From contig JACMPW010000002.1 in the NCBI GenBank assembly GCA_014377305.1, positions 1 to 43,384 of the forward strand: DNA of 43,384 nt, written 5' to 3'. Made by a program: the position numbers and the translations under genes. Numbering within the stretch: the first letter of the stretch is position 1; each line of letters starts with the position of its first letter. The notes below the pieces were generated by a model, which saw only the letters and a program-made list of their open reading frames with translations, had not been told where the DNA came from and searched no databases. Below, one piece after another: positions 5,103 through 14,941 of this stretch. Source of the DNA: Candidatus Altimarinota bacterium. Lineage in GTDB: Bacteria > Patescibacteriota > Gracilibacteria > BD1-5 > UBA2023.

Positions 5103-5251
5103 AGTATGAAGAGTTAGATTTTGAAATAACCAAACCTCACATGGTAGGTAGAAATATTATATCTTTCAAAAATAAAAGAAAAAGAAAAATTGAGGACAAA
5201 AGTATTCATATTTTTTATTGTTTTTCACCCCCTTTTCTATACACTCTCCCT

Positions 5252-6961
5252 ATGACTCAAGATCAAGCGTACGACATACTCACGATGGGACACAATGTGT
5301 TCCTCACGGGAGCAGCAGGGACGGGCAAGACCTATCTGATAAACCGATTCATCCGACATGCTCGTGAACACGGAATCACCATAGCGGTCACTGCATCGAC
5401 TGGGATAGCGGCGACACATATCGGAGGGATGACGATCCACTCATGGTCGGGGATGGGTATCCGAGATACGCTCACGGATGAGGATATCGATGTGATCGTA
5501 TCGCGTGAGTACCTCGCGAAGCGGTTCGCCAAGACGAATATATTGATCATCGATGAGATCTCGATGCTCTCGGGAGTGTTTCTCGCGAATCTGGATCGAC
5601 TCCTCAGGTCGACTCGTTTTTCTCAGGAGCCATTCGGAGGGATTCAGGTCGTACTTGTTGGGGACTTTTTCCAGTTGCCACCAGTGTCTCGTGGGAGTGA
5701 TGTCGAGTTTGCATTCGAGCATCCATCGTGGCGTACCTATCGTCTTGCAATCTGTGTGTTGGATGTGCAGTATAGACAAGGAGAGGATCCACTTCTCACG
5801 ATCCTCAACGAGATCCGCTCTGGGGATATGAGTCAGGAGTCTTTTTCGCTCCTTGATCGTCGCAATATTCCTGTTGATACCGAGGATCATACCGAGCTCT
5901 TCACTCGCAACATATCCGTTGATACCTATAACACGCAGAGGCTCAACGCGATCCACGACGATACATTCGTCTTCGAGATGCAGTCAAAGTGAGCCGAGAA
6001 ACTGGTAGAGGCTCTCAAAAAATGATGCCTCGCACCAGAGACTCTCATCCTCAAAAAATGAGCTCGAGTGATGTTCGTGAAGAACAACTTCGAGGCATGA
6101 TATGTGAATGGCTCGATCGGACATGTGGTCGGCAAGTATGAGAGCCTGCCGATCGTCGAGCTCACCGATGGGACTCGTATCATCGCGGATCATATGGACT
6201 GGTCGATCGAGGAAAATGGCAAGGTCAAGGCTACTATCCTGCAGATCCCACTCCGACTTGCCTGGGCGATCACTGTCCACAAGTCGCAGGGGATGACCCT
6301 CGATACCGCTGTCATGGATCTCAGTGATGCATTTGTCCGAGGACAGGGATATGTCGCTCTCTCTCGTGTCCGCTCACTCAACGGATTGATACTCAGAGGA
6401 TACAATCCAATAGCCCTCCAGATTGACTCACGAGTTCGTGACTATGATGAGATACTCAGGGCAACCTCAGCTGCTGTGATCGAGAGACTCGCTCAGATAT
6501 CTGAGAGTGAAAAAGAAACTAAGATAGAAACCGCGATCAAAAAACTCTGAGGCATCCTACAAAAAATTGATCTCGACTTCGTAGATCCCAAGCGAGCAAA
6601 GCTCGCAACTCATGAAGAGACTTACTCGCTGATTCAGTCTGGGAAGTCACTTGATGATATTGCGGAGATTCGCAATATCAAAATATCGACTATATTCTCC
6701 CACATCGAGAAACTCACTGAAGAGGGAAAGATCATTGATCTCACTTCTCACAGACCAGATGACAGTCATCGACTATCCGATATCCACCGAGCGTTCGTAG
6801 AGGTCGGTACCCTCTCACTCTCTCCCATTCGTGAGTTTCTCGTCAGTCTCCATGACGAGGATTATACCTATGATGAACTGCGTATGGCTCGACTGTTTCT
6901 TTCCATATCGGATCGAGCAAAGATCGAAGAGCAAATGCTCTATGAGAGTGAATGAATATAA
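5252..6961 (+). CDS. PIF1-family DNA helicase with C-terminal HTH domain
   Basis: ATP-dependent 5'-3' DNA helicase (superfamily 1B). Of 569 residues, the first ~410 form the motor: Walker A GAAGTGKT (20-27), motif Ia TASTGIAATHIGG, Walker B with DE at 101-102, motif III VLVGDFFQLPPV, then a UvrD_C_2-type end with ITVHKSQGMTLD and YVALSRVRSLNGL. Residues about 440-500 (HEETYSLIQSGKSLDDIAEI) look like the HTH_40 winged helix seen in bacterial PIF1 and RecQ proteins. UGA replaces Gly at six or more places, including NFEAGYVNG. It divergently neighbours the 77-residue protein. It may act on replication barriers or structured DNA, as in the family; that is inference. Confidence 0.92.
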
Positions 6962-7012: not shown

Positions 7013-8413
7013 ATGCATACCAAGATTCTTTCGACAATGATTCGACTCATCCTTTCTTGTCGATATAGAGTTGTGATCAAAAATATCGATGTTTTTGATG
7101 TTCCAGAGTCAATTTTGATACTTTCCAATCATCCAGCCTTCATTGACCCGATCATATTGCTCTCATATTTGAGTAAAAAGAAGGATATTTCACCAGTGAT
7201 CACTCATAAATATAGTCAGATATTTGGTATAAGTACTATTCTATCTTGGATACAGGCCATTATTGTACCCATTATTGATGATGCTCTCTCAAAAAATACT
7301 GTAGCACAAGTAGTTCTTACCATCAATAGATCTCTCAAAGACCAAAAAAATATACTTCTATATCCTGCCTGAAAAATCTATAGTCAATGATTTGAGTCAA
7401 TTCTTGGAAAAAGAATGGCCTATGACATTATTAGTTGATTGGATTCAAATGCTCGAGTTATTTTTGTTCATACTACCTGACTCTGGTGAAGTATATGGTC
7501 AAAATCGTATACAGGAGAAAATCCGAAAATATGAACAATATTCCTTCGTTCATTATACTTTCTTTTCATAAACCTCTTCTTTCTGATACCCAAACGAGAG
7601 GTTTCGATCGAGTGTGATGATATCACGGATATAATCAGGGAATGGAGTAGGGAAGATCTTCCAATATTTAACCAGAAACTGGAAGACTTTTATAATAAAA
7701 ATGGAGCTGAATTATGTAATTATATTCCTCATTATTTTTTCTATGATGATACTGCAAATAAGATTGAACCAAAAAATATCGTCGGATCTCTCAGTGAAAT
7801 GCAGAAATCTTGAATAGAAGATGCAATTTTCCAGCCAGAAACCGTGTTTCGAGTACATGATATCATCGCCACCATAAAATGAATTCATCCTTCAACTCTA
7901 ACGCTCCATACGCATCTCCTCCTCGATTTGCAGATGGATTCATTGGATATGATGGAACTCAGTACTATTGTCCACAGCCAATTCCCAAATGCTTCAAATC
8001 CTGAATTACAAACCTTAAGATATATATCAGATATTGCATATATGGCATCTTGAGGTCAACTTATACCGGATGATACTACCCTACTTTTGAATGATCAAGC
8101 CTATTCACTCAGGCAGTACATAAATAATGCTTGATATAGAGACATTGGTTTTCTCTTTCCAGAACAACTTATTTCAGTCCTGAAATCCGAATTTCAAGAA
8201 AGAAATGCAAGAGTCATCGAGTTGACCCTTGAGTGAGGAGAAGAGGAATTTTTCAGACAGTACCATACGATAACGACCAAGGTTATTGTTACGAGTTATA
8301 TATATTATCGTGAGCTCAGACATCCTTGGCTTGCTAAGTATGAGGAGAATTTTATCTTTATCGAAGATATTCCTAGGAGATCTCGCATCTTTTCGAGGAT
8401 TCTTGGATGATAA
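7013..8413 (+). CDS. Fused lysophospholipid-type acyltransferase and acyl carrier protein
   Basis: 466 residues with two recognisable parts. Residues 1-200 are a PlsC/LPLAT-type acyltransferase: NHPAFID carries the HX4D motif (His40, Asp45), YPAGKIYSQG (117-126) takes the place of the usual FPEGxR motif, and RVIFVHTTGLWGS is typical of a bacterial subgroup. Residues about 270-350 form an acyl carrier domain with DSL (Ser310) as the predicted 4'-phosphopantetheine site (LQMDSLDMMEL). The rest of the C-terminus (~375-466) is unassigned. Twelve UGA codons are read as Gly. It heads a nine-gene operon that also carries a phosphopantetheinyl transferase, a condensing enzyme and an acyl ligase, so it probably holds and transfers an acyl chain at the membrane. 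Confidence 0.85.
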
Positions 8414-8420
8414 ATGAAGT

Positions 8421-9515
8421 ATGTTTGGATTGCTTTTCTCATATATTTCATATACTTGCAAGTATACTAACTCACCCAATATGCTTTTCTCATATTTTTC
8501 TCGTGAATTGACACAGCAGGCTCTCGTCTTTGAGATATTTGCTGGTATTTCTCTCCTGTGTATCATCTATTATGGTGTGAAACACTATCGTTTCTTTTTT
8601 TGGCGTTTCTTTGCCCTTGCATTCGGAGTATTTTGTTTTGAGGGGCTCACATGAGCTATGTGGAATAACGCTCATCTTGGGAATCTTGCGTATATCCATA
8701 ATGATGTCAGCTGGGTGATGACCCTTATTTGGACAGGATTGATATTTTTGAACAAGTTTCTCTATGAGAGCATCTGTCAATCAAAGACTCTCATAAAAGA
8801 ATTTGCTTATGTAACCCTTGGTTCTAGTATTCTCTGATGGATCACCCTTACGATTCTAAAAATGATAGATATTTTTTCATATTCTATCACTATGGAATCA
8901 TATGTATCGTCATCAGTAAATATTTTTTGAATACCAGTCGAAGCTATAATATACTTCCCTGTATTTATCTTCACATCATATACATTCTATAAATATTGGG
9001 AACTCGCTATGTATGATAGGCACCTTTTTTCTCACTATAGTATTTCACTGAAAAAAGATATAGTCATCAGTGCATGTACTATCCTCCTTATAGGCTATTT
9101 GATGCATCCTCTTTTGCAGATGACCCTATGATCTACCTTTGTACTTGTTATAGTATATCTAGTAGGACTTATGTTTACGAGTTTCATGGTTGGTCAGATC
9201 AAGGATGTTCCACTTTTTCAGAGATATATTGCTGGTATATTTGTATTATCTATGTTTGGTATGATTATCGTGAGCCTGATGATGGATCATAGTATGATAT
9301 CTCTATCTCAGTCGATCAAGGATACACATACAGTCAATACTGTATTGGTACCATGACTCTCTATCTCTGATGTTGAGTTCGTTGGGATCGTCTTGTTTTC
9401 TTGTCTTTTGATAGCTATAGTGAGATACTTCAAGATCGTTACTGATAATAGCAATATCAAGCTCGATGATAAGAAAATGACATTCCAAGGATGGAAGAGT
9501 TTACTGATAAAATAG
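8421..9515 (+). CDS. Polytopic membrane protein of the acyl-carrier cluster
   Basis: 364 residues with about nine hydrophobic segments (for example IFAGISLLCIIYYGV, VSWVMTLIWTGLIFL, ILLIGYLMHPLL, RYIAGIFVLSMFGMII). I recognise no family or catalytic motif; it could be a transporter or a membrane-embedded enzyme. It begins seven bases after the acyltransferase-ACP gene. A competing ATG at 8414 is rejected because its frame stops after 18 codons. Five UGA codons are in frame. Strongly AT-rich codon use (ATA, TTT, TAT), like the rest of this operon. Confidence 0.7.
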
Positions 9516-9548
9516 TGTATAGTTTTTATATAAGTTAACCACAATCCT

Positions 9549-9782
9549 ATGGCAACTGTTTTCCCACTGGTTCTTATATTATATGTTGCATTATGACTAA
9601 TATCTTTAGGTAAGAACAATTCAACTCTTTGAAAGGTTTTTATGAAATTTCTATTTCTTGCTGGTATGTTGTTTGTGGCAGGATTTGTATTTTTGATATT
9701 TATCGATAGTAACACATTCATTGCCATATCTTCTGCCACACTCATTTTATGAACATCACTTTGGAGAGCATTTAAGTGGTAA
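9549..9782 (+). CDS. Small membrane protein, paralogue of the next gene
   Basis: 77 residues with an N-terminal hydrophobic segment (MATVFPLVLILYVALGLISLG), a short basic loop and two further hydrophobic stretches. The part GKVFMKFLFLAGMLFVAGFVFL and ILGTSLWRAFKW can be aligned with GKRIMKFIFLGGMLMLAGTVFVG and ILGHRMTYNW in the following protein, so the two look like a tandem duplication. Three UGA codons are in frame. No family is recognised. It probably acts in the membrane with the other cluster products. Confidence 0.6.
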
Positions 9783-9786
9783 TGAT

Positions 9787-10053
9787 GTGATTGAAGGATG
9801 AATTTTATACCCCTTTTTTATTTATATGCTTTTTTTCTTATTCGTGCTTATCATTTTTATCCCATATTTTTCACCAGCTTTCATTGGTAATCAGACTATA
9901 TGAAAGCGTATTATGAAGTTTATTTTTCTCTGAGGGATGCTGATGCTCGCTGGTACTGTATTCGTTGGATTATTTGATATATTCTTTCCACTATCATTCA
10001 TACTAGCTCCTGGTATACTCATCCTATGACATCGTATGACTTATAATTGGTAG
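9787..10053 (+). CDS. Small membrane protein, paralogue of the previous gene
   Basis: About 88 residues, three hydrophobic segments, closing on TAG at 10051-10053. No ATG lies near the 5' end in this frame; GTG 9787 is chosen because it starts four bases after the previous stop and keeps the first hydrophobic segment, while ATG 9826 is an alternative that shortens it. The second half is similar to the previous protein. Four UGA codons are in frame. The role is unknown. Confidence 0.55.
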
Positions 10054-10055
10054 AT

Positions 10056-10952
10056 ATGAAAATCAAAACTCTCACTGAGCTCTCAAGAAAATCTTCTCAT
10101 TCTCATGAGGAATTTTTTGATTGGTGAACATATTCTCTCCAAGATGGAGAATATTTTATGCCCCCAGAGCTCCTATCTATCTATGATACGCCACTCTATG
10201 CTACACTAAGTGATCCTCAGATACGAGAACTGACTCGTATAGAGTCTATACAGATCATATATCTCTATGCCTATACAGAGAGTGTGATGTGTTATTATCT
10301 TGCTCGACATCTCGTAAAATCAGATTTTGGGAGCGAAGAACATGCATTTGTCCTCAGGGAACAGCTAGAAGAATACCGTCATCAAGATATGTTTCTGCGA
10401 TGACTCGAGATATTAGGTATGGATTTTCAGCCTATGTCTCGTTTCACAAAATGGTGGACATGACTCGAAGCAATTATTTTGCCTGCAAAATATTTTTTCT
10501 TATTACAGATAACTATAGAGCTCATCTCTAGGGAGATGGGGAGATTGATCTTCTCAGATCATCGTGTCAATCAATTGGTACGAGATATCTCGCTCATGCA
10601 TGAGCGAGAAGAGGCTCTCCATATTGCATTCTCAGATACATATCTGCAACGATCATTTCAGGACGCTGGATTCTTTGTTCGAACATTTGGAGGGATATGT
10701 ATGGCACTGGATATTGCATTTATCAATACTTTTTACATATATCCATGACTATATAAAAAGGCCTGAATAGAGAATGATCAACTCTTCTACAGAGAGGCTC
10801 GCAAAGCCATTAGAAAAAGTCTTGTAAAGAATATGCTTACATGAAGTGCTCTTGAGTTTCTCAGAAAATATGATTGGATAACCTGGGCAAATGCTGGGAT
10901 ATGGCTTATTTTTACCTGAATTACTCGAGAAAAAATCTATGGAAAAAATTAG
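10056..10952 (+). CDS. AurF-like diiron N-oxygenase family protein
   Basis: 298 residues, all-helical, with the seven metal ligands expected of the p-aminobenzoate N-oxygenase (AurF) family: Glu75, Glu106-x-x-His109 (LEEYRHQDMF), Glu155 and His182-x3-Glu186-x2-His189 (MHEREEALH). The spacing of the two histidine motifs is the same as in AurF. Family members use a diiron-peroxo centre to oxidise amines to hydroxylamines or nitro groups, or to hydroxylate carbon. The substrate here may be carrier-bound, judging by the neighbours. UGA encodes Gly at residues 24, 116, 136, 231 and others. It overlaps the next gene by 14 bases, a sign of coupled translation. Confidence 0.85.
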
Positions 10953-11973
10953 AAAATTATTCCAGAAATCAGTATCTATAATTGGAATAGGTACATATGT
11001 TCCGACTTCCTCATTTACAAGTGATGATATAGAGGAGCGTATTCACTCGCAGAGCCAGTACCATGATTTCCAGAAGGGAATTGTGTATGATATTTCTGGT
11101 ACTTATACTCGGCATTTTGTTGCACCTGATGAACAGGCATCCACAGTTGCTATATATGCGTCAAAAAAAGCGATCGAATCAGCTCGTCTGAATATCAATG
11201 ATATTGATTGTATCATCTTTGCAAGTGCTTCTCAAGATATCATTGAACCAGCTACAGCAAATATGGTCCAACTGGGACTCTGATCTACGGCTCCTGTGAT
11301 GGATATCAAAAATGCTTGTAATAGCTTTCTGAATGGTATACAAGTAGCGTCCAGTATGATCCAATCATGACAATATAAAAATATCCTGGTATGTTCATGA
11401 GAAACTCCATCTCGAGCCATCAAATGGAATACAAAAGATAGGAAAGAATTCAAGGATGCTCTGGCATGATACAGTCTCGGAGATGCTGGTGTAGCTATGA
11501 TTCTCTCAGAGAAAAAAAAGAATATGCCCACAGTTGTGTTCACTGAATTTTATTCTAAATGAGAGTATTGCTATACAAGTACTATCCTTTGATGAGGATC
11601 ATTGTATCCTCGAGATGCTGAGAAAAATTATTTTCTCTCTGATTCAAAGGCTTTATCAGAAGCATTTTGACTCCATGCCAAAGAATTTTGTCTTGTATCT
11701 TTGCATAAGTACGGATGGAAAATATCCTCTATACAATATTTTTTTCCACATATTGTATCTCGATATTCGGCAAATATATTTAGGGATGTGTTTTCTATTG
11801 CTCATCACCATATTATTAATTATAATAGTACTCATGGAAATATGGCATCTTGTTCTATCCCGTACGCCCTAGTTAGGGCAATAGAAGAGAAGAAATTTGC
11901 TCCATGACAAAGATGATTGATGATCTGACTTGGTGCATGAGCATCGTTTTGAGTAGTTGGTATACAGTTTTAA
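10939..11973 (+). CDS. 3-oxoacyl-ACP synthase III-like condensing enzyme
   Basis: 344-residue thiolase-fold protein that would make a carbon-carbon bond between an acyl thioester and an extender unit. The catalytic triad is visible: Cys127 in IKNACNSFLNG, His271 in FFPHIVSRYS and Asn301 in STHGNMASCSIPYAL, followed by the closing loop GLGAGASFGVVGIQF. The usual FabH His motif HQAN is not kept, so it may not be a true FabH. The sequence NACNSFLNGIQVAS also recalls OleA, which joins two fatty acyl chains. Start 10939 gives a normal N-terminus; an upstream ATG at 10891 would add sixteen residues that lie inside the AurF-like gene. More than ten UGA codons. Confidence 0.85.
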
Positions 11974-11976
11974 TAT

Positions 11977-13497
11977 ATGTATTTTTATCGATCACATCTT
12001 CTAGATGATTTCCTCGCTGATATCTCTGTAAGTGAGGAGGAGATTATTATAGATACAGTCTCTAACAAGAAAATGATAGCCAAAGATTTTTACTCGGAGA
12101 TATGTCGTATCGCTGATTGACTCCAGAAAAATTGACTGCAAAAGTGAGATACTGTCATCATCTTTACTAAGGATAGCATTGCTTTCAGTATTTTTATAAT
12201 TGCAATACTACTTATCTGAGGTACAGTGGCGATCATAGATCCTGAAATAGGAGACCAAAATCTCTATAAAAAAATATCTCTTTTGCGTCCTTCTTTTTGT
12301 ATTATTGATGGAATTATTTTTGATATACTCCATCTTGGAAAAATCGGGAAATATATTCACCCCATTTTTATGACATTATCAAGGAATATACTCGATATTT
12401 GTGGGAAAATAATTATTACATCAAAAACATATCTTGGAAAACACCATCAGAATGTGTGTGAGTGGGAGCATGTTACTGCTATTCCAACATGGATTGATAG
12501 AGACGAGAGTGATGATGCTATTATTGTATTTACTGGCGGAACTACTGATGATCCAAAATGAGTCATTCATTCATTGGGATCGTTATCTGCAACGATCCAA
12601 GTACTAGAGTTATTGATAGGAGAGAGTCATATTTTTTATGCGGATTTACCACATTTTATACTCTTTGGAGTTGTCATGCAAAAACAGACAATCATAGGAA
12701 ATGAATCCTACTCTCCTGGTAGGATTCATGATATATTTGTCTGATATGATGTTGATGCCACTTTTTTTGCTCCTTATAAGATTCAACAATTTATTACTCA
12801 AGGTATCAGATTTCCAGGATGTCTCAATCATATGCTCATTGGCTCAGCTCCGATGTATAGCTCCTTTCTTGAAAGGTGTATTTCCCAATGTTTCCCCTCG
12901 AATACTCGTATTACTTGTGTATATGGTATGACTGAACTATTGCCTATTGCGAGTATAGATGCAAGGGAAAAAATTGATGTCTTGTACCATCGTTGAGATA
13001 TACTCTGAAAACCATTTTCTGGTGTTCTGTATAAGTTTGGTAAGGATAATGAACTGCATGTAAGTGCTCATCATGCGATGAAGTGATATTTTTGAAAACC
13101 ACCACAAGATTATATAGCTACCTGAGACCTGGTTTCGAGAGATTGAGATAATCTTGTTATGCTCTGAAGAAAAAAAGATATGGTCATCAGAGGGAATTAT
13201 AATATATACCCTTCTCTTTATGAATCTATAATACTGTCCATCCCATGAGTGAATGATTGTGCTCTATTTGGCATCCATGAGTCTGATTACAACGAGCAAA
13301 TTATTCTCTTGGTAGATTCTATCTTTACCGATAAGTCTTTATTTTTATCAAAACTTCAAAGTTGAAAGTATTCAATTGACTCTTTTGCTATACCAGATAA
13401 TATTGTTTTTGGTTCCATTCCGAGATTTGGTAGACAAAAAAAGATCAATAAATTTAAACTCTGACAATTATACTTACATCATAAATTATGAAAATAG
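11977..13497 (+). CDS. AMP-forming acyl-CoA/acyl-ACP ligase
   Basis: 506 residues of the ANL superfamily. It would activate a carboxylic acid with ATP and load it on CoA or the carrier domain encoded upstream. Motifs: phosphate loop TGGTTDDPKG (186-195), A5-type YGMTE (316-320), A7 with TGD (382-384), hinge region LGRKKDMVIRGNYNIYP (397-412), and the end IPRFGRQKKINKFKL, where Lys488 or Lys489 is the likely catalytic lysine. The length is a little short for the family. It begins four bases after the condensing enzyme and overlaps the next gene by ten bases. UGA is used for Gly195, directly after the loop lysine, and for fifteen or so other glycines. Confidence 0.88.
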
Positions 13498-14387
13498 CTA
13501 TTACTGGATCTACATGATTTATTGGAGGACATCTGGTTCGTTATTTTGATAATGGAATGAATACGATTTATGCGTTTGGGCGATCAGCACCACAATTCGC
13601 CTCAGGGAATATTATCCCTATCATATGGGATATGAATGATCCAATATGAATACATCTAGATGATATAGATCTATATATCCATGTTGCAAGTGATACAAAC
13701 TATAGAGGATCTATAATTGATATGCAATATTCCAATGTTGATTCTCTAGAGAATATTCTGGGTAGCTTAACCAAAAATATAAAACACTTTATCTATATAT
13801 CATCATCTTCCATATATCAGTGAGTATGATGAATACCTCTCAGAGAAGATATGAAGATCGATATATGAAATCTCCATAATAGCTATGCTCGTACCAAATA
13901 TCTCGCAGAACAAAAACTCATGAAAGAGTTCCCAAAAAATATAAAACTCACTATCATTCGACCTCGAGCTGTCTATGGTATATGAGATAAGTTCCTTTTG
14001 CCAACTATTTTACAATATACCATATTTGGACGATTGTTGCTTTTTTGAGATGGTAGTATCTATACTTCGCTCACGAGTGTAGAGAATCTATGTGAGGCTG
14101 TAGATACTATTCTAGATAAACAACATACGAGACAAGCAATATATAATATTGCAGATAGAGAGCCTCTTATGCTAGAACAAATATATCAGTCTATTTCTAG
14201 ACAATTTGGGCTTATGGGTGTTTTGCATATCCCCTATTTTTTTATACATATACTTATGTTCTTTGATAAGAATAGATTTTCTTATGTATTAGATAGTTTT
14301 CAATATAATAAGATTCTTGATCTCTCCAAAATCGAACATCTCTGATATAGATGAAAGCATACATTTTTGTCATTTATGGATATGTAA
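13488..14387 (+). CDS. NAD(P)-dependent epimerase/reductase (extended SDR)
   Basis: 299 residues with a Rossmann start (ITGSTGFIGG, residues 5-14, the Gly10 codon being UGA), a Ser-rich strand ISSSSIYQG that would supply the catalytic Ser, and Tyr133-x3-Lys137 (NSYARTKYLAEQ). A substrate-binding tail follows (RPRAVYGIGD, IYNIADREPL). Extended SDRs include sugar epimerases and 3-beta-hydroxysteroid-type reductases such as OleD; the neighbours favour reduction of a ketoacyl product, which is inference. It overlaps the ligase gene by ten bases and the next gene by one. Confidence 0.85.
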
Positions 14388-14941
14388 TGATACACTACGA
14401 ATACCATATAAAAGCAAAATCTGTTGTCATAAATGCCAAGGCACAATACCCCTGGCTGTCTACTATGAGTCTTGCGGATGAAAGTATCGAAGCAAGGTAT
14501 CATCTTTTATGATACCTTCAGGATACTTACTGATATCATTGAATTCTTGATAAAGATATATATAATAAGCCTATCCCTATAGAATTTAATGGATGATTGT
14601 TATTCTGGTCTATAGCACATACAGAGAATTATATTGCATGTATTATATCGGATGATCGAGTAGGGATCGATATTGCTGAAATAAAATTTCGAAATAGTGC
14701 TCTTTTGATGATTTTTCCTGAATATGAATATATTTTGATTGGAGAAAGAAATTGGGAAACATTTTATATACTCTGGACTTCTAAGGAGGCTCTGATTAAA
14801 AAAATATATTGAAAGATAGAAGATATGGGAGAAATGTATGTTCAGTCATATACAGATAATAGGATGATCATCTCTTTTTATCAGAAAGAATATACAATAT
14901 ACTGCATTGAGTGAGGTACAGCAACCTTAGCATATTGTTAA
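14387..14941 (+). CDS. 4'-Phosphopantetheinyl transferase
   Basis: 184 residues of the Sfp/AcpS superfamily. It would attach the CoA-derived phosphopantetheine arm to Ser310 of the carrier domain encoded at the start of this operon. The metal and CoA motifs are present: WSIAHTENYIACIISD, VGIDIAEI (Asp95, Glu98), FPEYEY, and LWTSKEALIKK (Lys133, Glu134). Its stop-start overlap with the SDR gene (TAATG) indicates translational coupling. It closes the cluster; AT-rich codon use ends here and the next gene returns to the window's normal usage. Confidence 0.85.

Follow-up and report, generated by a model that had tools for sequence, protein, structure and literature searches.

A run of nine genes at positions 7013-14941, on the plus strand of a 43,384-nucleotide stretch from a Candidatus Altimarinota bacterium (assembly GCA_014377305.1, contig JACMPW010000002.1), is best read as an operon gained by horizontal transfer, in which an OleACD-type condensation pathway, lacking OleB and equipped with an AurF-like oxygenase, is coupled to a carrier module derived from an Aas-type acyltransferase. 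We give this reading a probability of about 0.55. An OleACD-type condensation is, taken by itself, very probable, and the odds that a lipid product remains with the cell are about even; that product would most likely be an oxygenated 2-alkyl-3-hydroxy acid or beta-lactone lipid made from host-derived acyl chains. The whole stretch, hereafter the window, is one contig (C14) of a genome of 917,877 bases in 16 contigs that is 93% complete and belongs to a member of the candidate phyla radiation (CPR), probably a tiny, host-dependent bacterium. What the sequences show are the domains and active-site residues of the encoded proteins, the OleA-type character of the ketosynthase (KASIII), the origin of the acyltransferase gene, the recurrence of a core of four enzymes, and the lack of a detectable OleB, fatty acid synthesis or second carrier system.

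All nine genes are intact open reading frames (ORFs) in the window under translation table 25, in which TGA encodes glycine. With the preferred starts the intergenic gaps are at most 33 bases, and several neighbors overlap. The genes are as follows.

g1, 7013-8413, +: PlsC-like acyltransferase (HX4D motif, HPAFID), acyl carrier protein (ACP) domain (DSL, ∼280-324) and acyl-ACP ligase remnant (343-455)
g2, 8421-9515, +: membrane protein with ∼8 transmembrane segments and no known family; a 50%-identical homolog adjoins the KASIII gene of genome G055
g3, 9549-9782, +: small membrane protein, paralog of g4
g4, 9787 (GTG) or 9826 (ATG) to 10053, +: small membrane protein, paralog of g3
g5, 10056-10952, +: AurF/CmlI-type diiron oxygenase; putative ligands E75, E106, H109, E155, H182, E186 and H189
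g6, 10939-11973, +: OleA-type KASIII with C127, H271, N301 and E103-P104 (aligned with OleA Glu117-Pro)
g7, 11977-13497, +: AMP-forming ligase, OleC-like
g8, 13488-14387, +: OleD-like short-chain dehydrogenase/reductase (SDR; GSTGFIG, YARTK)
g9, 14387-14941, +: Sfp-type phosphopantetheinyl transferase (PPTase; preferred start in a TAATG overlap, alternative start 14351)

A preliminary description of this DNA had proposed a same-strand operon of nine genes with these identities, and the intact frames and family searches agree with it (AurF, 2e-32; KASIII, 6e-20 and 2e-16; AMP-binding, 4e-29; Epimerase/SDR, 2e-20; ACPS/PPTase, 5e-7). We consider the reading of TGA as glycine in the window to be sound: in homologs from G456, the standard-code CPR genome used for comparison, glycine stands opposite TGA at 11 of the 13 in-frame positions in g6 and at 9 of the 17 in g7.

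The nearest solved structures to g6 are those of Xanthomonas campestris OleA (1.7e-31, PDB). The role of Glu117 in that enzyme has been described as unique to OleA homologs, and the residue was present in all but two of the OleAs studied (PMC7064751). The corresponding Glu-Pro of g6 recurs in three CPR homologs (from G055, G456 and a Paceibacterota genome) and in three Streptomyces/Embleya proteins. It does not occur in E. coli FabH, in a KASIII from a Klebsiella plasmid or in the KASIIIs of Runella, Rhizobium, Pontibacillus and Priestia. A tree of 14 KASIII proteins separates an OleA-type group, g6 included, from a FabH-type group with support of 100/100, although X. campestris OleA forms a long branch and the branching order within the OleA-type clade is open. 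By these signs g6 belongs to the OleA-type enzymes. Similarly, the best-matching family of g8 is OleD (2.7e-21), with the NAD(P) motif and YxxxK present, as it is for the g8 homologs of G456 (1e-40) and Streptomyces viridifaciens (3e-21). The ligase g7 groups with those of the core module described below (29-38% identity) and bears scant resemblance to Aas-type ligases. No Abhydrolase_1 match was found anywhere in the genome, and the OleB step of the OleABCD olefin pathway is thus missing from what was searched. The likeness to OleA, OleC and OleD without OleB that had been pointed out earlier is therefore borne out by the Glu-Pro hallmark, the tree, the OleD family match and synteny with a cluster in the order OleA-glycosyltransferase (GT)-OleC-P450-OleD.

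That synteny was seen in the nearest annotated relative cluster, on S. viridifaciens plasmid pKVP2 (KASIII-GT2-acyl ligase-P450-NAD(P) oxidoreductase), whose proteins are 33, 27 and 28% identical to g6, g7 and g8, respectively. Its layout is that of the OleA-GT-OleC-P450-OleD cluster of A. atraurantiacus, which is predicted to make a beta-lactone, OleB being absent (PMC7064751). Described OleACD clusters that lack OleB, among them some that include an oxygenase gene, have been associated with secreted beta-lactones (PMC7064751). The window operon might thus serve to make a beta-lactone, with g7 acting as OleC, that is secreted against the host or competitors, in which case g2-g4 would export it and the Aas-derived part would just supply acyl chains. 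Besides the precedents, the similar Streptomyces cluster, the membrane proteins of the operon and the lack of an OleB-like hydrolase in the genome speak for this explanation; however, the intact HX4D motif of the PlsC-like acyltransferase suggests transfer to a lipid backbone, the operon encodes no recognizable transporter family, and g7 lies far under the cut-off of the OleC model, so we regard secretion of a beta-lactone as possible but doubtful.

Other clusters with a KASIII were also encountered. A Runella cluster (L014) was rejected as a full relative because its KASIII does not have the OleA Glu and falls among the FabH-type enzymes. Together with clusters from Pontibacillus (L124:3998-8963) and Rhizobium (L125:4001-8156), it (L014:3391-11228) represents a separate cluster type in which a KASIII without the OleA Glu is accompanied by an SDR/NAD(P) oxidoreductase, a metallo-beta-lactamase-fold hydrolase and an F390/CoF-synthetase-like protein, Runella adding AurF and GH3 proteins. 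On plasmid p1 of Streptomyces sp. BHT-5-2 (L122:5923-10563), an unannotated OleA-type KASIII is followed by ligase-like and SDR-like frames and adjoins a large polyketide synthase-like frame.

The oxygenase g5 matched PF11583 (AurF) with 112.7 bits against a cut-off of 29.6. In a model built from a five-sequence alignment (predicted local distance difference test score, pLDDT, 86), the closest folds were CmlI (Z 19.3 over 263 residues, root-mean-square deviation 4.0) and AurF (Z 18.3), with ribonucleotide reductase R2 and methane monooxygenase ranking behind them; other helical diiron proteins reached Z 15-17, and the fold by itself does not settle function. No AurF turned up when g5 sequences were used for profile searches of the PDB; the link to AurF comes from Pfam and the fold. 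The putative ligands, assigned by pattern, are invariant in the five sequences and fit the arrangement ExxH plus HxxxExxH, with three His and four carboxylates; this is the AurF pattern, QExxH being that of acyl-ACP halogenases (PMC12101540). Because g5 has EEYRH in place of QExxH, identity as a CylC-type dimetal halogenase was rejected. CylC does provide a precedent by analogy for an AurF-related enzyme that can act on an ACP-bound fatty chain. If g5 instead N-oxygenated an amine, as AurF and CmlI do, the Ole-like enzymes would build the acyl part of a nitrogen-containing product. The conserved ligands and the fold would suit such a reaction, but g5 is just ∼12-13% identical to AurF/CmlI, and neither the operon nor the surroundings of the core in other genomes contain an aminotransferase, a nonribosomal peptide synthetase or another amine-forming gene, which makes this explanation very improbable.

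The genes for AurF (g5), KASIII (g6), ligase (g7) and SDR (g8) form a core module that, judged from gene content, recurs in three other genomes, beyond chance. In G055, a Candidatus Gracilibacteria metagenome-assembled genome (MAG) of the same order, AurF, ligase and SDR genes lie on one short contig (L003), those for KASIII, a g2 homolog and a single small membrane protein on another (L006), and a PPTase gene at the end of a third (L088); identities to the window proteins are 41% for g5, 42% for g6 and 38% for g7. In G456 (L009), KASIII, ligase and SDR genes are consecutive and are followed by genes for two other membrane-type proteins and an SRPBCC protein, with AurF on the opposite strand. 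In the Paceibacterota MAG (L015), AurF adjoins SDR-ligase-KASIII. AurF is rare, occurring in 2 of 99 relatives, 2 of 338 genomes of the class and 2 of 380 of the phylum, and no further member was found among the 338 genomes of the class and 335 genomes of the class of G456. No OleA-like genes lay near the AurF homologs of two other Bacteroidota genomes (L120, L121) or of the actinobacterial plasmids viewed, and these candidates were set aside. The two membrane-type proteins and the SRPBCC (Polyketide_cyc2) protein encoded between the Ole-like genes and AurF in G456 (L009:7470-9263) perhaps have a role like that of g2-g4.

Searches of the contigs with E. coli protein queries gave no matches to FabD, FabF, FabZ, FabI, AcpP, PlsX, PlsY, PlsC, CdsA or PgsA, although the ∼7% of the genome that is missing could hide others and remote homologs can escape this method; the positive controls ParC, UvrC and UppS matched in the same search. 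The sole FabH match in the genome is g6, the sole ACP match g1 and the sole PPTase match g9. The sole complete AMP ligase is g7, g1 also matching through its ligase remnant and its presence in the profile. On these searches, the only carrier system found in the genome sits in the operon, and the surprise expressed in the preliminary description, that an ACP system should exist without fatty acid synthesis, holds for this genome. A lipid study of CPR-rich groundwater identified no enzymes that produce or depend on ACP in the CPR genomes it examined, and reported the samples to be rich in lysolipids (PMC7242380). Elsewhere in the genome, a frame of 1519 residues that combines a carboxyltransferase (ACCA) domain with a biotin carboxylase domain but has no biotinyl domain match (L030:1265-5821, on G000 C15) is a fused acetyl-CoA-carboxylase-like protein, even though fatty acid synthesis was undetected there. 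A FabG-like short-chain dehydrogenase lies at the end of that contig (L069:4386-5078), the carboxylase frame starting at its other end.

The acyltransferase and carrier domains of g1 score slightly below their Pfam cut-offs (21.8 versus 23 bits and 19.6 versus 20.8), but its HX4D motif and the Ser of DSL are kept across 12 family members. Like Aas-type proteins, g1 has the HX4D acyltransferase; of a complete acyl-ACP ligase domain only ∼110 residues are left, and this tail aligns with the beginning of the ligase part of the fusions in the order (2e-7). Of 77 genomes of the order, 14 contain homologs of g1, at no more than 44% identity. In G001, G003, G017 and G026 they are long acyltransferase-ACP-ligase fusions of ∼850-910 residues, two of which were tested and matched acyl-[ACP]-phospholipid O-acyltransferase at 1e-119 and 1e-127; in other genomes they are acyltransferase-ACP proteins of ∼370-390 residues, several with a separate ligase gene nearby. 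We conclude from these alignments that g1 is a truncated Aas-type fusion.

None of the 13 g1-homolog neighborhoods fetched outside the window contains a KASIII, AurF or g2 gene, and 7 of them have a g9-like PPTase gene. Recurrent neighbors are an MFS protein, a patatin-like phospholipase, an AMP ligase and a C92 amidase, family assignments that were checked on examples rather than on every copy. The cassette of the order appears to follow the logic of E. coli Aas and LplT, a pair that imports lysophospholipids and reacylates them. Because relatives in the order are of Aas type and often stand beside PPTase and MFS genes, g1 and g9 look as if they derive from an apparent lysophospholipid-reacylation cassette. 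The operon had been called self-contained, a term that conceals its origin in two parts, given the ancestry of g1 and the presence of g9 homologs in the same cassette. The cassette merits attention in its own right: across loci L089-L101 (e.g., L089:4935-10635, L093:7097-12477, L095, L096, L098 and L099), the recurrent Gracilibacteria set of acyltransferase-ACP(-ligase), PPTase, MFS, AMP ligase, patatin and C92 amidase resembles a system by which CPR bacteria would salvage lysophospholipids in the manner of Aas/LplT.

This ancestry raises the question of whether the operon mainly serves salvage and remodeling, with g7 replacing the lost ligase of g1 to load host fatty acids, g1 reacylating lyso-lipids, and g5, g6 and g8 only tailoring the chain. 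Such a role would agree with the truncation of g1, with g7 being the sole AMP ligase found in the genome and with the enrichment of lysolipids in CPR-rich samples (PMC7242380). It is nonetheless unlikely, as g7 sides with the core-module ligases and hardly resembles those of Aas type, two genomes have the core but no detectable ACP, g6 carries the OleA Glu-Pro, and homologs of the MFS, patatin and C92 amidase partners were undetected in the window genome.

Family searches matched none of the three membrane proteins to a known family. The tandem paralogs g3 and g4 (9549-10053; mutual similarity 3.5e-6) correspond in position to the single small membrane protein of G055, and of the proteins that the two Gracilibacteria share, g2 is conserved best. 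Searching the PDB with a g2 profile returned nothing, and the AlphaFold model of g2, made from two sequences, was unusable (pLDDT 40). Two candidate homologs of g2 were discarded: a match in G025 was weak (1.5e-4) and short, with no core genes in the surrounding 2.5 kb, and a 310-aa membrane protein of G456 had no detectable similarity.

The composition of the operon is atypical. The GC content of the nine genes is 0.32-0.38 (about 0.35), versus an ORF median of 0.438 and a 5th percentile of 0.35 in the genome, and TGA makes up 44% of the glycine codons in the operon versus 20% in the genome. Because low GC is combined with a doubled use of TGA, the operon was probably taken up from another member of the recoded lineage, one of lower GC. 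The genes on either side look unrelated: directly upstream on the same strand is a Pif1/RecD2-like helicase gene with a C-terminal HTH_40 domain (5141-6961), and an ABC-transporter-like ATPase frame follows the operon. Atypical composition, patchy distribution and the ligase remnant in g1 could also be taken as marks of a decayed or misassembled stretch without function. That nine intact, closely packed frames with conserved catalytic residues, a gene set shared with three other genomes, a fitting TGA recoding and flanking genes read in the same recoded way should result from decay or misassembly is scarcely credible.

Under the reading that we prefer, a condensation pathway coupled to an Aas-derived carrier, the substrates, step order, product and destination are inferred as follows. 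The PPTase g9 would arm the ACP of g1, and host-derived acyl chains would be presented as thioesters. Two of these chains would be joined head to head by g6 to a 2-alkyl-3-keto acid, which g8 would reduce to the 3-hydroxy acid; g7 may activate acyl groups, close a beta-lactone in the fashion of OleC, or both. The chain or the condensed product would be oxidized by g5 with O2, the acyltransferase of g1 would transfer the product to a backbone of lyso-lipid or glycerol, and the membrane proteins g2-g4 might anchor or move it in the membrane. A more specific version, in which an as yet undescribed mycolate-like or oxygenated 2-alkyl-3-hydroxy lipid is built from two stolen chains by an ACP-linked OleACD pathway, with the AurF-like enzyme replacing P450 and oxidizing acyl chains, and is esterified into the envelope, is offered tentatively, the odds being clearly against its holding in every detail.

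Several observations weigh against our interpretation. Characterized OleA uses acyl-CoA rather than acyl-ACP, which leaves the link between ACP and OleA weak. ACP and PPTase were undetected in both standard-code CPR genomes with the core (G456 and Paceibacterota), implying that the carrier is not essential to the chemistry; it seems to be an addition within the Gracilibacteria. As the only AMP ligase found, g7 is not obviously able both to load fatty acids and to act as OleC. Finally, scores against curated NCBIfam models are low: g6 reaches 168 bits with its best model (PRK09258; cut-off 285), g7, a member of the ANL family, 117 bits with its own (PRK09274; cut-off 478) and a below-cut-off 8e-18 with the OleC model, and g8 76 bits with the OleD model (NF042422; cut-off 580). 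Because all three proteins lie so far below these cut-offs, we keep to the names OleA-type, OleC-like and OleD-like and refrain from classifying the operon as an olefin pathway.

OleACD clusters without OleB, Aas-type acyltransferases and AurF-like enzymes are each already known. The literature available to us, in which subscription papers were partly beyond reach, yielded no account of OleACD combined with AurF and an Aas-type carrier, or of either module in CPR bacteria, and searches on the gene set, on CPR acyltransferase/PPTase lipid genes and on AurF acting on acyl chains did not find the combination described. Within the reach of these searches, the earlier view that no described cluster has this composition stands for the nine-gene set but not for its OleACD part, which has precedents with and without an oxygenase gene. 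How CPR bacteria acquire and alter membrane lipids is an open question, the group being thought mainly to scavenge them. In this operon, an acyl-condensing pathway is linked to an ACP, a PPTase and an acyltransferase of its own, and the main gene of the carrier cassette is spread through the order as noted above. The operon, for which a modified-lipid product is the working idea, points to an unrecognized lipid or beta-lactone in the CPR group, supplies testable genes both for lysolipid salvage and for such a CPR-made compound, and presents an AurF-like oxygenase as a new partner for OleACD pathways.

Comparison with known systems places the operon between several of them. With Aas-type acyltransferases (PRK08633, PRK06814, PRK08043), g1 shares a PlsC-like acyltransferase and the start of a ligase in one chain, and an MFS gene is often near its relatives in the order; it differs in its built-in ACP domain and the loss of most of the ligase domain, and the partners of the cassette (MFS, patatin, amidase) are missing from the window genome. 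With AurF and CmlI, g5 shares the fold (Z 18-19), EExxH and HxxEExxH and seven putative ligands, but identity is low, a second-shell Asp is replaced by Glu, and the genomic partners are Ole-like rather than those of arylamine pathways. The CylC/NocO dimetal halogenases, which act on acyl-ACP, are likewise AurF-related diiron enzymes whose genes accompany those for a fatty acyl-AMP ligase and an ACP, but carry QExxH where g5 has EExxH. The OleABCD olefin pathway of X. campestris has in common with the operon a KASIII with Glu-Pro, Cys, His and Asn, an OleC-like ligase and an OleD-like reductase, whereas the operon lacks OleB, is distant in sequence from the curated families, and has in addition an AurF-like oxygenase, an ACP-acyltransferase, a PPTase and three membrane proteins. 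The OleACD clusters with P450 (S. viridifaciens pKVP2, A. atraurantiacus) also combine a KASIII, an acyl ligase, an oxygenase gene and an OleD-like reductase without OleB; in contrast to them, the operon has an AurF-like diiron enzyme in place of the P450, has no glycosyltransferase, and adds a carrier protein, a PPTase and an acyltransferase.

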